From Natronosalvus caseinilyticus (GTDB lineage Archaea > Halobacteriota > Halobacteria > Halobacteriales > Natrialbaceae): 64,000 nucleotides of DNA. Below, piece by piece: positions 34,147 to 43,349 of the stretch. Numbering within the stretch: the stretch's first letter is position 1; every line of letters starts with the position of its first letter. The DNA is taken from contig NZ_CP071596.1 in the NCBI RefSeq assembly GCF_017357105.1, positions 3,906,001 to 3,970,000 on the forward strand, written 5' to 3'. Both the position numbers and the translations under genes were made by a program. Under the pieces are notes generated by a model. The model was not told the origin of the DNA. It saw nothing but the letters and a program-made list of their open reading frames with translations, and did not search any database.

Positions 34147-36111
<1,965 letters not shown>

Positions 36112-36251: not shown

Positions 36252-36257
36252 TTATAT
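36252..36257 (+). promoter_or_regulatory. TATA-like box of the Bat-type regulator
   Basis: TTATAT ends 24 bases before the ATG at 36282, predicting leaderless transcription independent of the upstream acs gene. Confidence 0.5.
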
Positions 36258-36281
36258 TCGTGTTAGAAGATATCACGAAGC

Positions 36282-38435
36282 ATGTCCGTCGATGGATCGG
36301 CGGTGCTGACGACGACTCGGTACGAGGCGCTGTTGAACACCGCCGAAACCCACCGCGAGGCCCTCGTCGTTCGGTTGTGCGGCGACGTCGGCCTTCGCCC
36401 GGCGGAGGTCGTCCGATTGACGCCGGGTTGCGTCCGACAGCTTCGCGCCGATCCACCACGATACGGGCTCGCCGTTCCCGCCTCGACGGAGTCGAGCGAC
36501 GATGTCGCTCGAGTCGCCTACCTCCCGACTCGCGTCGAACGAGCGCTTCGCCAGTACGCCCACGGCAACGGCATTGGCGACGACGACCGCCTCGTTCCCG
36601 TCACGCCGCGTCGCGTCCAGATGCTCGTCGCCGAGGTGAGCACCCGGGCGAGCGAGCGATTCGACGATCCGACGCTCGAGACCGTCTCCTCGAGCGATCT
36701 GCGACGCTTTTTCGCGAAACGCTCACTTCGCGAAACTCATAACCCACAAGCCGTCAAGGCTGCCGGTGGCTGGCAGAGTTTCGAGGCACTCGAGCCCTAC
36801 CTCCCCAGCCCGACGCCCGACGAGCTGGTTCGAGCGTTCGAGCCGCTCGAAACGGGGGGCCCGCCGGATCGACCGTCGATCCCCTCGGCCCTCTCGAACG
36901 GTGGTCGACCGGTAGAGGAACGAGCGAATGAATCGGCGGGGAATTCGACGGCAGACACGCTGCGAGACGCGCTCGAGCACTCCGACCGATATGCCTGGTT
37001 CCGCCTCGACGCAGACGGACGTATCGACCGCTGGAGCGAGGGGGCAGCCGACTGCTTCGGCTACGCGGCGGCGGACGTGATCGGCTCACACGTCCGAATC
37101 CTCTTTCCGGACGCGGCCGTCGACGAGGGCGTTCCCGACCGACTGCTCGAGACCGTGCACGACGAAGACGGGGTCGACGTCGACGGGTGGCGCTGCCGAG
37201 CGGACGGGTCGCAGGTGCACGTGATGGAGACGATCGTCCCTCTCGTCGCCGACGGGAACCGGGGGTTCGTCGTTCTCTCGTGCCAGGACTCGACCCCTGA
37301 CCATCGGCAGCGGTTCGAACCCGCTCGAGCGGTCACGGACGCGCTGCTCGAGGCCTCGACGCACGAGACCGTCGAAACAGCGGTCTGTCGCGCACTCGTC
37401 GACGAGGGGCCGTACGAATTCGCCTGGATCGACCGAACGACCGCCTCGCGAACCCGCCGGGAGTGGTACGCCGCGAGCGGCCTCGAGGACGCGACGATCG
37501 AGCACTTGCAGACGGTCCTCGAGGAAGCCGACGAAGTGAACCACGGCGACCTGGACGACGGAAGCGTCCAGACGAACGTCTCGATCGACGATTTCGACGG
37601 GGCGCTCCTCGCGGTTCCCGTCCGCTACGGCGACACCGTCTACGGGACGCTGATCCTTGGAACAGCGCGCGAGACGGTCGACGAACGGGAACGGGCCTGG
37701 CTCGAGACCCTCGGTTCCCAGGTCGGTCACACTATCGCGGCCGTCCGGCGACGCAACCTCCTGCTCTCCGACGCGGTGATCGAACTCGAGTTCGCCTGCC
37801 GGGACGCGGCGTCGTTCTTCGTCGACGCCAGCGCCCGACTCGACTGTCGGTTCGAACTCGACTCGCTCGTCCCCATCGACGACCACACCCAGCTGTACTA
37901 CGTCCACGTCACCGACGCCACCCCGGCAGCGGTCTTCGAGCACGCCGAATCGGACGCCGGCATTCGAGAGTGCCGGGTGATCGACACCTACGCGGACGGC
38001 AGCCGCCTCGAGTTCGTCGTCGAGGGCTCCTCGCCGGCGCTCACGCTGATGGAGTACGGCGTGACCGTACTCGAGTCGGTGACCAGGGACGGGACGACGA
38101 CGATCACGGCCGAGTGCGCGAGCGATACAGACGTCAGAACCGTCGTCGATGGCCTGTGCGCAGCGTTTCCCGCGTCGGAGCTCGTCGGAAAGCGCCAGGT
38201 CGAGCGCTCCGTCCAGACGGCCCGCGCGTTTCGAACGGGCCTGGAGGAGCGACTCACCGACCGCCAGGAGGCCGCGCTTCGAGCGGCGTACTTCGGCGGC
38301 TACTACGACTGGCCTCGTGAAAGCACGGCCGAGGAGATCGCCGACGCGATGGACGTCTCCTCACCGACCCTGCACAACCACCTCAGGAAAGGCCAGCACG
38401 AACTGTTGCGGACGTTCTTCGACGACCGGCCCTAA
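36282..38435 (+). CDS. Bat-type (bacterio-opsin activator) regulator with recombinase-like N-terminus, PAS, GAF and HTH_10
   Basis: A 717-residue sensor-regulator. Residues 10-190 resemble the catalytic core of tyrosine recombinases: GLRPAEVVRLTP with Arg39, SSDLRR with Arg141, GGW with Trp164 and EPYL with Tyr173; the box II histidine is Ser138. Residues 220-325 are a PAS domain (RDALEHSDRYAWFRLDADGRI), 345-490 a GAF-like domain, 500-650 the Bat-associated domain, and 657-710 the HTH_10 (LTDRQEAALRAAYFGGYYDW). Bat proteins respond to redox or light and activate transcription. Lying between two acs genes it is probably their regulator. Confidence 0.85.
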   Translation: MSVDGSAVLTTTRYEALLNTAETHREALVVRLCGDVGLRPAEVVRLTPGCVRQLRADPPRYGLAVPASTESSDDVARVAYLPTRVERALRQYAHGNGIGDDDRLVPVTPRRVQMLVAEVSTRASERFDDPTLETVSSSDLRRFFAKRSLRETHNPQAVKAAGGWQSFEALEPYLPSPTPDELVRAFEPLETGGPPDRPSIPSALSNGGRPVEERANESAGNSTADTLRDALEHSDRYAWFRLDADGRIDRWSEGAADCFGYAAADVIGSHVRILFPDAAVDEGVPDRLLETVHDEDGVDVDGWRCRADGSQVHVMETIVPLVADGNRGFVVLSCQDSTPDHRQRFEPARAVTDALLEASTHETVETAVCRALVDEGPYEFAWIDRTTASRTRREWYAASGLEDATIEHLQTVLEEADEVNHGDLDDGSVQTNVSIDDFDGALLAVPVRYGDTVYGTLILGTARETVDERERAWLETLGSQVGHTIAAVRRRNLLLSDAVIELEFACRDAASFFVDASARLDCRFELDSLVPIDDHTQLYYVHVTDATPAAVFEHAESDAGIRECRVIDTYADGSRLEFVVEGSSPALTLMEYGVTVLESVTRDGTTTITAECASDTDVRTVVDGLCAAFPASELVGKRQVERSVQTARAFRTGLEERLTDRQEAALRAAYFGGYYDWPRESTAEEIADAMDVSSPTLHNHLRKGQHELLRTFFDDRP

Positions 38436-38663
38436 CTGTCTAGATACCGCAAGTCGCTCGTCGCCCACGCGCTGTCCTGACAGTTGGAGATACTCGTCTC
38501 GAACACGTTCGGGTTGTGCCCAGAATATATTCCGCCCCCAAATACCCAAAATAATCGCCAAATTAACCTCATTCGACTGATTACTCGAGCTTCCCATCTG
38601 GCGTGATTTTGCTCACCTAGAGTCGGTATTTACCCCCCTTATCTCGTATTGCTGTAGTGTAAC
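38436..38663 (+). promoter_or_regulatory. AT-rich upstream region of acs copy 2
   Basis: 228 bases of non-coding DNA. Between about 38515 and 38580 the sequence is unusually AT-rich (AATATATTCC, CCAAATACCC, AATAATCGCC, AAATTAACC), a plausible activator-binding zone. Nearer the gene, GTATTTAC and CTTATCTC (38638-38645) are candidate TATA elements 19-38 bases before the ATG. Which protein binds is not shown. Confidence 0.4.
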
Positions 38664-40637
<1,974 letters not shown>

Positions 40638-40711: not shown

Positions 40712-41164
40712 ATGCCAGATAATACCACTCACGAACCGGAGAACGAAGAACGGACCGTCGCGACCGATGGCGGCCGTTCGGACGTCGAACGAGAGAAGGA
40801 GATCGACTACCTGGACGTCGAGATTAACCTGCTGAAGCCGGGAACCCCGTTCATGCGGGATCACAACAGGGTCATTCTGTCGGGATTCGCCCTCTGGGCG
40901 GTGATCGTCTTCGGACCGATCACCGCGACGCGGCTGGCCCCAGGCGTGATGACCCAGACGATTCCGGGACTGGGGTTTCCGCTTCACTACTTCCTGATCG
41001 CGATCGTCGGACCAGGCGGTGCGCTGTTGTTATCGGTCTGGTACGTGCGTAAGCGCGACAAGATCGACGAGAAGTACGGAATCGAGCAGATACAGGCGCC
41101 AGAAACGACCCAGACCGACACCAGTTCGGAGCCGGCGGCGACCGACGGAGGTGTCGATCGATGA
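40712..41164 (+). CDS. DUF4212 small membrane subunit of a sodium:solute symporter
   Basis: A 150-residue protein with an acidic N-terminus, the DUF4212 signature YLDVEINLLKPGTPFMRDHN, two transmembrane helices (about 54-76 and 88-110) and a hydrophilic tail. Members occur beside SSS-family transporters of acetate and similar acids and are presumed accessory subunits. Its stop overlaps the symporter start by four bases. A candidate promoter GCTTATCG is about 50 bases upstream. Confidence 0.88.
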   Translation: MPDNTTHEPENEERTVATDGGRSDVEREKEIDYLDVEINLLKPGTPFMRDHNRVILSGFALWAVIVFGPITATRLAPGVMTQTIPGLGFPLHYFLIAIVGPGGALLLSVWYVRKRDKIDEKYGIEQIQAPETTQTDTSSEPAATDGGVDR

Positions 41165-42879
41165 ACGGTCTCGCGTTCACCGTGCTCTCGCTGATCGGGG
41201 ACACATCTATCCTCCTGCAGGGAGACGAAGAATTGCTTCCCGAAGGGCTGAACATCGGATTTAAACCGATCCCGGCGATCATCGTCATCGCGATGATGGG
41301 GCTGTTTCTGGCGGCCGGCGTCTTCTACAAGGTGGCAGATACGTCGGACATGTGGGTCGCTGGGCGCTCGATCGGGAACATCGAGAACGGCATGGCCATC
41401 GGTTCGAACTGGATGTCGGCGGCGTCGTACCTCGGTATGGCCGCTCTCATCGCGCTGTCGGGCGTCTACGGCCTGGCGTTCGTCGTCGGCTGGACAACCG
41501 GCTACTTCGTTCTGCTCATCTTCCTGGCAGCCCAGATGCGTCGCTTCGGAAAGTACACCGCACCGGACTTCGTCGGCGATCGATTCAACTCCGACGCCGC
41601 CCGGGCCATCGCGGCGGTCACCACGTTCCTGATCGGGTTCGTCTACGCGCTCGGGCAGGCCCGAGGGATGGGACTCGTCGGCCTGTACATCCTCGGCGAT
41701 CCCGGGATTCCGGGGCTAAGCGGCTACCAGGCGATGATGATCATCTTCATGGTCATCACCATTGCCTACCTGTCGCTGTCGGGGATGCTCGGGGCGACCA
41801 AGACCATGGTTCTCCAGTACGTCATCCTCATCGGCGCGTTCCTGATCGGCGTGCTGGTTACCGGGTGGACGGCGGGCTACTCGACGTTCCTGCCACAGCT
41901 CGAGTACGGCGCGTTGATTACCGAACTCAGCAGCGAGTTCTACGATCCGTTCGCGGGCGGAAGCTACTACCTGTGGGTCGCGACGGCGTTCAGTCTAATC
42001 TTCGGGACCTGCGGACTCCCCCACGTGCTGGTTCGATTCTACACGGTCGAGAACGAACGAACCGCACGCTGGTCGTGCACCTGGGGGCTGTTCTTCATCT
42101 GTCTGCTGTACCTGTCGGCACCCGCGTACGCGGCGTTTGGGACCGATCTCTACAGTAACGAAGTCCGCCCGGCGTACGGTGATCCCGGTATGAGCGGCGA
42201 GGCTGGAGACGTCATCGTCGTGCTGGCGACACAACTGGCAGGTCTGCCGACCTGGCTCGTCGGTTTCGTCGCTGCGGGCGGTATCGCCGCGGCGGTCGCG
42301 ACGGTCGCCGGACTGTTCATTGCCGGCTCGTCGGCCATCTCGCACGACATCTACGCGAACATCATCAACCCCGACGCGACCCAGCGTCAACAGGTCCTCG
42401 TCGGCAGACTGAGCATCGTCGCGCTCGGCGTGCTGACGATCCTGTTCTCGCTCAACCCGGCCCAGCCCATCGCGGCGCTGGTCGGCTTCGCGTTCTCGCT
42501 CGCGGCCATCGTGCTGTTCCCGATGTTCTTCCTCGGACTCTGGTGGGAGAACACCAATCGTCCGGGAGCGCTCGCCGGAATGTCGACCGGACTGATCGTC
42601 TGGCTCATTCCGATGTTCAACGAGGGACACTTCCAGACCACGCCCTGGGGAATCGGGTTCCTCGAGACGTGGATGCCTGCCATCGGCTCCGGACTGATCG
42701 GCGTTCCGGTCGTCTTCGCTGTCACCATCGCCGTTTCGCTGGTCACTGCAGAACCGCCCCTCGAGACCAAGCAGATGGTCAGGCAGTGTCACAGTCCGGA
42801 ACCGATGCCCAAAGACAAGACGGCGGCCGACGTGGTCGCTGAGAAGAACGGCGGCGGACCAACGCCGGCGGACGACTAA
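41161..42879 (+). CDS. Sodium:solute symporter family protein, probable acetate permease
   Basis: A 572-residue membrane protein of the SSS (APC-fold) family with about 13 transmembrane helices. The sodium-site region MWVAGRSIGNIENGMAIGSN is clear. The type that pairs with DUF4212 is related to ActP and to the VC_2705 family; transport of acetate or another short monocarboxylate is inferred from the adjoining acs genes. The hydrophilic tail after residue 545 is basic then acidic. Confidence 0.88.
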   Translation: MNGLAFTVLSLIGDTSILLQGDEELLPEGLNIGFKPIPAIIVIAMMGLFLAAGVFYKVADTSDMWVAGRSIGNIENGMAIGSNWMSAASYLGMAALIALSGVYGLAFVVGWTTGYFVLLIFLAAQMRRFGKYTAPDFVGDRFNSDAARAIAAVTTFLIGFVYALGQARGMGLVGLYILGDPGIPGLSGYQAMMIIFMVITIAYLSLSGMLGATKTMVLQYVILIGAFLIGVLVTGWTAGYSTFLPQLEYGALITELSSEFYDPFAGGSYYLWVATAFSLIFGTCGLPHVLVRFYTVENERTARWSCTWGLFFICLLYLSAPAYAAFGTDLYSNEVRPAYGDPGMSGEAGDVIVVLATQLAGLPTWLVGFVAAGGIAAAVATVAGLFIAGSSAISHDIYANIINPDATQRQQVLVGRLSIVALGVLTILFSLNPAQPIAALVGFAFSLAAIVLFPMFFLGLWWENTNRPGALAGMSTGLIVWLIPMFNEGHFQTTPWGIGFLETWMPAIGSGLIGVPVVFAVTIAVSLVTAEPPLETKQMVRQCHSPEPMPKDKTAADVVAEKNGGGPTPADD

Positions 42880-42881
42880 CG

Positions 42882-43349
42882 ATGTACGAACGCATACTCA
42901 TCCCGACGGACGGTAGCAGCGTGGCGGAGGTAGCGGTCGAGCACGGGCTCGACTTAGCGGAGAAGTACGGCGCGGAGGTACACGCGCTGTACGTCGTCGA
43001 CACCGACGCGGTGGCCTACGGACTGGGCACCGAGCAGGTGGATCGACTTCGGCAGGGCAACTTCCAGGGCATGACCGAGCTTCGCGAGAAGGCGGAAGCC
43101 GCGACCGGGTACGTTCGCGACCTCGCCGAGGCGAGGAGCATCTCGGTGGTCGAACACTACTCGGGCGGTCGACCGCACGCCCTGATCGCCGACTACGTCG
43201 AGGACAACGATATCGACCTCGTCGTCATGGGCAGCCACGGTCGCTCCGGGGTCAGACGCGCCCTGCTGGGTAGCGTCACCGAACGGACCCTGCGGTCGAC
43301 GACCGTTCCGGTGCTCGTCGTCGACGCCCGGAAGTCGGTCGACGAATAA
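42882..43349 (+). CDS. Universal stress protein (UspA family)
   Basis: A 155-residue UspA-fold protein starting MYERILIPTDGS. The ATP-binding loop GSHGRSGVRRALLGSVTE (G-2x-G-9x-G-S pattern) is intact, so it should bind ATP. It begins 2 bases after the symporter stop and is therefore co-transcribed; Usp genes frequently follow SSS transporters in haloarchaea, possibly as regulatory partners. Confidence 0.9.
   Translation: MYERILIPTDGSSVAEVAVEHGLDLAEKYGAEVHALYVVDTDAVAYGLGTEQVDRLRQGNFQGMTELREKAEAATGYVRDLAEARSISVVEHYSGGRPHALIADYVEDNDIDLVVMGSHGRSGVRRALLGSVTERTLRSTTVPVLVVDARKSVDE

Follow-up and report, generated by a model that had tools for sequence, protein, structure and literature searches.

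Within the window (the whole stretch of 64,000 nucleotides that was analyzed) lies a gene, here called intBat, in which a tyrosine-recombinase core is joined to a Bat-type regulator. From sequence comparison across the family we consider it probable, on balance, that this core is catalytically dead and provides a looping acetate regulator with its second DNA-binding module. The architecture itself is already on record. What we add is the decay of catalysis combined with a frozen helix, the near-universal position between acs genes, and a set of cis elements, two of which are missing where the regulator is missing and are helically phased relative to each other.

Domain organisation and fold of the regulator

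The gene and its domains, all on the forward strand, are as follows.

36282..38435, +: intBat, predicted regulator of 717 aa with an ATG start, composed of an apparently dead tyrosine-recombinase core, PAS, GAF, BAT and HTH_10
36303..36854, +: tyrosine-recombinase-fold domain, residues 8-191 (profile matches, AF2 model, PDB structure matches)
36957..37304, +: PAS domain, residues 226-341 (profile match)
37359..37736, +: GAF domain, residues 360-485 (Pfam match)
37770..38234, +: BAT domain PF15915, residues 497-651 (Pfam match, E=2e-48)
38253..38408, +: HTH_10 DNA-binding domain PF04967, residues 658-709 (Pfam match, E=2e-17)

The open reading frame call and the Pfam matches bear out an earlier sequence-only reading, which had described an open reading frame at 36282-38435 (+) with PAS, GAF, BAT and HTH_10 domains fused to a recombinase-like N-terminus of about 190 residues. 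The residues it had named (R39, S138, R141, W164 and Y173) were found at the positions given, and two acs genes do flank the regulator, both on its strand. Profile searches scored the sensor domains at 2e-9 (PAS_9), 2e-10 (GAF_2) and 1e-10 (TIGR00229). A BAT domain followed by a C-terminal HTH_10, together with PAS and GAF, identifies intBat as a Bat-type regulator, and the PAS, GAF, BAT, HTH_10 order is that of the haloarchaeal Bat and Bat-like proteins (REC-PAS-GAF-BAT-HTH_10). However, the divergent N-terminal REC domain of Bat (PMC5847659) is absent and the recombinase core stands in its place; the target of Bat is bop, whereas that predicted for intBat is the acetate operon. Known cases exist in the Bat family in which REC is replaced by other domains (PMC5847659). 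The combination of Phage_integrase, BAT and HTH_10, in some members with GAF_2, constitutes fam30-04 of Badel, Da Cunha and Oberto 2021 (PMC8371274). intBat shows this combination and belongs to that family, whose members are listed in the available text of that paper as integrases by their Pfam content, without function, residue analysis, gene context or sites.

Searched alone, the N-terminus of intBat matched Phage_integrase (PF00589) with E=1.2e-5 and 25.6 bits, just under the Pfam cut-off of 27.1 bits, and the NCBIfam model XerA_Arch with E=4.8e-7. All 46 of 46 homologous N-termini matched PF00589, the best at 5e-14. A single-sequence search of the PDB with the intBat N-terminus returned chance matches only, and a profile search was needed to find archaeal XerA (4a8e; E=2e-13 with a profile of the homologous N-termini). 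The AF2 model of the N-terminus (pLDDT 90.2, pTM 0.86) adopts the catalytic-core fold of tyrosine recombinases, and its best structural matches in the PDB were phage Brujita integrase, Cre and XerA, with XerH and SPbeta MrpR/YopR also found. The structure prediction and fold search proposed in the sequence-only reading thus returned a tyrosine-recombinase core and not an unrelated fold. Most tyrosine recombinases clamp their DNA with a core-binding (SAM-like) domain; intBat lacks this domain, which counts against the explanation we favour.

Two known systems are close in fold. Archaeal XerA (4a8e, 5hxy) shares the catalytic-domain fold and is matched by sequence profile, but it also contains a core-binding domain, its active site is intact and its function is chromosome dimer resolution. 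The master repressor MrpR/YopR of the Bacillus phage SPbeta (8a0a, 8bj6; PMC10516654) is a DNA-binding transcription regulator with a catalysis-dead recombinase fold, as intBat is proposed to be. Unlike intBat, it has retained an N-terminal core-binding domain as well as the Lys and the Tyr, and it is a phage repressor without sensor or HTH_10 domains; the two proteins have no close sequence relation. The authors of the MrpR work considered that dead recombinases acting as regulators may be common (PMC10516654).

Origin of the core and fate of its active site

Of 125 genomes in the family, 115 contain the domain, as do 294 of the 392 in the order, and the reading frames that carry it are mostly 550-850 aa long. 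The fused domains group together in one clade (support 100/100) on a long stem, and the sequences closest to them come from stand-alone integrases (about 200 aa), of which the same genome encodes two. These two (L010 at C1:3689223 and L011 at C1:1799092) are integrases of about 198 aa that consist of the catalytic domain alone, lack a core-binding domain and still carry all catalytic residues. The short stand-alone haloarchaeal integrases (these two with L150, L156 and L166) are the proteins closest to the intBat N-terminus, at 31-45% identity, but they differ from it in keeping R, K, H, R, W and Y, in their variable recognition helices and in having no acs neighbours. The tree is most simply read as a single ancient fusion event with largely vertical descent afterwards. 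In Haloferax denitrificans (L092) the regulator is split over two frames, through a frameshift or a sequencing error.

Among 91 distinct fused domains, Arg141 was kept in 91, Trp164 in 89, Arg39 in 81, Tyr173 in 69 and the box II His in 4. The two Lys residues of the beta2-beta3 hairpin, found in 24 of 25 stand-alone integrases, are lost family-wide in the fused proteins, so that the catalytic set R-K-H-R-H/W-Y is not found in the intBat family (91 fused proteins). The fused proteins of Haloferax combine Thr39, Arg138 and Leu173, and hence are without R39, His and Tyr together. The sequence-only reading had held that only the box II histidine was replaced; it overlooked a second catalytic loss, that of the hairpin Lys. 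Its remark that the tyrosine and both arginines are retained stands for Arg141, invariant in 91/91, and not for Tyr173 (69/91) or Arg39 (81/91, Thr in Haloferax), and the alignment it had suggested for these three residues shows only Arg141 to be invariant across the 91 fused proteins. Because Tyr173, Arg39 and the box II His are not retained family-wide and the Lys is lost, catalysis does not appear to be under selection. These patterns argue for a catalytically dead recombinase core with no integrase activity. The box II His is kept only in four fused proteins (L080, L130, L131 and L133), all of the Halalkalicoccus clade, which have the Tyr as well and may represent an earlier stage of catalytic decay.

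When conservation was compared with that in 25 stand-alone integrases, the three largest losses in the fused domains were Lys75, Lys69 and His138, with Tyr173 also down. The largest gains included M114, R111, Q113 and R110, and further gains were seen at Y/H24, R122, T23 and Y14. The four leading positions map to one helix.

36606..36659, +: helix 109-126 before box II, expected to be the major-groove recognition helix (AF2 model, conservation comparison)

R110, R111, Q113 and M114 are near-invariant at the start of this helix in the fused domains, whereas the same positions vary among the stand-alone integrases, each of which has its own target. In Cre the counterpart of the helix before box II, helix J, sits in the major groove of the target DNA. 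The pattern is what would be expected if one fixed DNA sequence were still read and no longer cut. Together with the fold, it fits the suggestion of the sequence-only reading that the recombinase fold could be a second DNA-binding module.

The acetate locus and its candidate regulatory elements

The genes and elements around the regulator are as follows.

34147..36111, +: acs8-like AMP-forming acetyl-CoA synthetase, upstream flank (ORF, conserved upstream acs in homologous loci)
36257..36281, +: E3, inverted repeat TTCG-N15-CGAA(G) between the regulator TATA box and start codon (100/118 unique upstream regions)
38432..38443, no strand: E1, dyad CTAACTGTCTAG (CTAR-N4-YTAR) overlapping the regulator stop codon (128/165 intergenic regions)
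38607..38621, +: E2, TTTTGCTCACCTAGA, activator-like, just upstream of the acs7 TATA box (164/165 intergenic regions)
38627-38632: acs7 TATA box, TATTTA
38664..40637, +: acs7-like acetyl-CoA synthetase, first gene of the acetate operon (ORF, conserved context)
40712..41164, +: DUF4212, small membrane protein of the SSF transporter (ORF, context, order annotated in L337)
41161..42879, +: sodium:solute symporter, ActP-type acetate transporter (ORF, context)
42882..43349, +: universal stress protein, last gene of the operon (ORF, context)

The alignment block MGDRDEVPNDG points to the true start of acs8. In all 94 loci analyzed for context (59 named and 35 fused, the latter picked by rank from the order-wide list), an acs gene on the same strand was found on both sides of the fused gene wherever the contig shows both sides. 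Genes for DUF4212, the SSF transporter and the universal stress protein then follow in most loci with long enough flanks. Gene order was stable in all loci seen, and acs neighbours were absent at the five stand-alone integrase loci (L010, L011, L150, L156, L166). On a plasmid of Haloferax alexandrinus the identical order is annotated, with the gene named 'bacterio-opsin activator domain-containing protein'.

In H. volcanii, acs7-A0155-actP-uspA forms one 4.6-kb transcript, made on acetate only and not on glucose or casamino acids (PMC7746861), and in H. mediterranei acetate raises both flanking acs genes about 3-fold (PMC11784441). No regulator is named in the available text of these two papers. 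Since acs7 is HVO_A0156 and acs8 is HVO_A0158 in H. volcanii, the regulator should be HVO_A0157, which we predict to be intBat. A literature search found no mention of HVO_A0157, no Bat-family acetate regulator and no reported binding, expression or mutant results for intBat.

The E2 pattern TT-N3-[AC]A-N-YTAG was found just upstream of the acs7 TATA box in 164 of 165 distinct regulator-acs7 intergenic regions, and the E1 pattern CTAR-N4-YTAR near the regulator stop codon in 128 of the 165. A first set of 87 loci gave 59 occurrences of E1 in the regulator-acs7 region and 3 in the flanking DNA (1.05 Mb). Taken by itself, the window has E1 at one place where about one is expected, which is not significant; the weight of E1 comes from the comparison. 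Neither element was found upstream of acs7 in genomes without the fused regulator (0/12, acs7 orthologs 78-87% identical). E1 is missing in several clades with short intergenic regions, which counts against our preferred explanation. Most genomes without the regulator have upstream of acs7 a GGGAAYGTTTAT-type promoter (L311-L320, L322), much like the acs8 promoter elsewhere; a deletion of the acs8-regulator block with a switch in promoter use would give this picture.

The sequence-only reading had proposed that the protein bridges two sites, for example the two acs promoters. Bridging of the acs promoters was tested by shared elements and rejected, E1 being found in 0/50 and E2-like sequences in 5/50 of the acs8 upstream regions of genomes with the regulator. 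Two phased sites do have comparative support, and they are E1, which marks the 3' end of the regulator, and E2, the candidate UAS of acs7, rather than the two acs promoters.

A search of the genome with the exact E2 pattern gave a single occurrence and no wider regulon, and looser patterns were too noisy. E1-like dyads occur at 10 further places in the genome, some on stop codons or beside a TetR-type gene, so that this type of dyad alone defines no regulon. A palindrome, CTAACCGGTTAG, lies 15 bp before a TetR-type regulator gene (C1:665741; L202:2542) and is probably that gene's own operator. E1 and E2 share the half-site YTAG, which resembles Bat-type sites, and HTH_10 alone could therefore bind both. 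As a TAG-core site beside the TATA box, E2 resembles the bop UAS. In the same genome, a REC-type Bat paralog of 705 aa (C1:1289356-1291605; L204:2557-4806) carries two such dyads, CTAAN4TTAG, one across its stop codon and the other about 120 bp before its start, a hint that dyads of this type are general HTH_10 sites.

The sequence between E1 and E2 is not conserved. Its length falls into modes of 162-166, 172-175, 182-186, 194-197 and 206-207, with a mean step of 10.6 bp, and distances of 116-118 and 147-148 were seen in other families. The modes at 164, 185, 195 and 206 appeared in the first 50 distances and recurred in 100 newly fetched regions, which also filled the missing step near 174. 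Phylogenetically independent pairs differed by 5, 9, 9, 9, 10, 10, 11, 11, 11, 11, 12, 12, 15, 17, 18, 21, 22, 31, 31, 32, 67 and 135. The periodicity of 10.5-10.6 bp has a p of about 1e-4 to 5e-4, a post hoc value on an approximate tree, with motifs and phasing test developed on the same kind of data and two mis-assigned distances (L075, L264) left out of the final test. A minority of distances is off phase (117, 142, 147 and 201), which again counts against the favoured explanation. E1 can lie anywhere between -9 and +215 relative to the stop codon, and no phase was found in this distance. Two sites spaced by varying whole helical turns, as in looping regulators, are thus present, post hoc (p about 1e-4). 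Helical phasing over 11-20 turns is the signature of looping, and we regard it as good but not final evidence that the DNA between E1 and E2 is looped.

E3 has the family form TTCGC-N13-GCGAAAC-ATG. TTCG-N8..22-CGAA was found in 100 of 118 distinct regulator upstream regions, compared with 0.9 in shuffles, the spacer being mostly 15-16 bp. In many regions GCGAAAC recurs about 75, 85, 96, 107 or 119 bp farther upstream, the distance apparently growing by some 11 bp per step; L068 and L049 are examples of such paired CGAAAC copies, one distal and one proximal, and the window copy is at 36257-36281. The E3 motif differs from E1 and E2. Two motif classes and two candidate DNA-binding domains suggest a possible division of labour, in which HTH_10 may read the YTAG sites and the recombinase (Int) core may read GCGAAAC or part of E2. 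In some clades E1 is dispensable although the Int helix is unchanged, which makes it unlikely that this helix targets E1 alone.

Proposed mode of action and its rivals

In our preferred explanation, intBat would be a dedicated regulator, most likely an activator, of the acetate uptake and activation operon acs7-DUF4212-actP-uspA. Its core would have been captured once from the short stand-alone haloarchaeal integrases, losing catalysis and keeping sequence-specific DNA binding. PAS and GAF would sense a signal, and a dimer or higher oligomer would present two kinds of DNA-binding domain. The protein would bind E2 by the acs7 TATA box and, on the same face of the helix, E1 where its own gene ends, looping the intervening 11-20 turns, and it would probably control its own promoter through E3. 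We infer the occupation of E1, E2 and E3, the participation of the Int core (not only HTH_10) in one contact, the loop, the signal and the direction of regulation. We favour activation, since E2 adjoins the TATA box like haloarchaeal activator sites and the operon is silent without acetate. More tentatively, and with less than even confidence, the core, of a kind that ancestrally joined two DNA sites, may have been domesticated once in Halobacteriales to give a transcription activator a second DNA-binding arm, synapsis being reused as a phased loop between the acs7 promoter and the gene end; such a loop might possibly also form within intBat's own promoter.

The recombinase fold might instead be only structural or serve oligomerisation, with HTH_10 dimers binding E1, E2 and E3 and any looping arising from tetramerisation by way of PAS/GAF or the Int core. 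The shared YTAG half-site, the dyads at both ends of the REC-type paralog and the poor conservation of the catalytic residues would all agree with this, yet it leaves unexplained why conservation rose most on the expected major-groove helix (R110, R111, Q113, M114), and a second, unrelated motif (GCGAAAC, E3) stands at the gene's own promoter; we find it rather doubtful. That the three elements belong to other regulators or to general promoter architecture, with intBat acting elsewhere and its position by acs due to co-inheritance, seems unlikely: CTAA...TTAG palindromes do occur near a TetR-type gene and other genes, but the near-universal acs context speaks against it, as does the absence of E1 and E2 from 12/12 acs7 promoters without intBat and their presence in nearly all with it. 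A domain still working, perhaps conditionally, as a recombinase and inverting, deleting or otherwise rearranging DNA of the acs region, would agree with the presence of R39, R141, W164 and Y173 in the window protein and with the His kept in four Halalkalicoccus-clade proteins. We judge it highly improbable given the family-wide loss of the hairpin Lys, the loss of His in 87/91 and of Tyr in 22/91, the combined absence of R39, His and Tyr in Haloferax, and the stable gene order.

The acetate operon is expressed on acetate only and its regulator is unnamed in the available text of the papers searched; the present analysis points to one gene, two to three sites and a spacing rule. The predicted HVO_A0157, the sites and the spacing rule are testable in H. 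volcanii, a standard model archaeon. Most studied archaeal regulators act beside the promoter, and phased regulatory sites 11-20 turns apart would, if the explanation is true, be unusual for archaea. intBat would then also exemplify, in cells and across an order, the conversion of a recombinase into a transcription factor; the comparable example that we found is a phage repressor.
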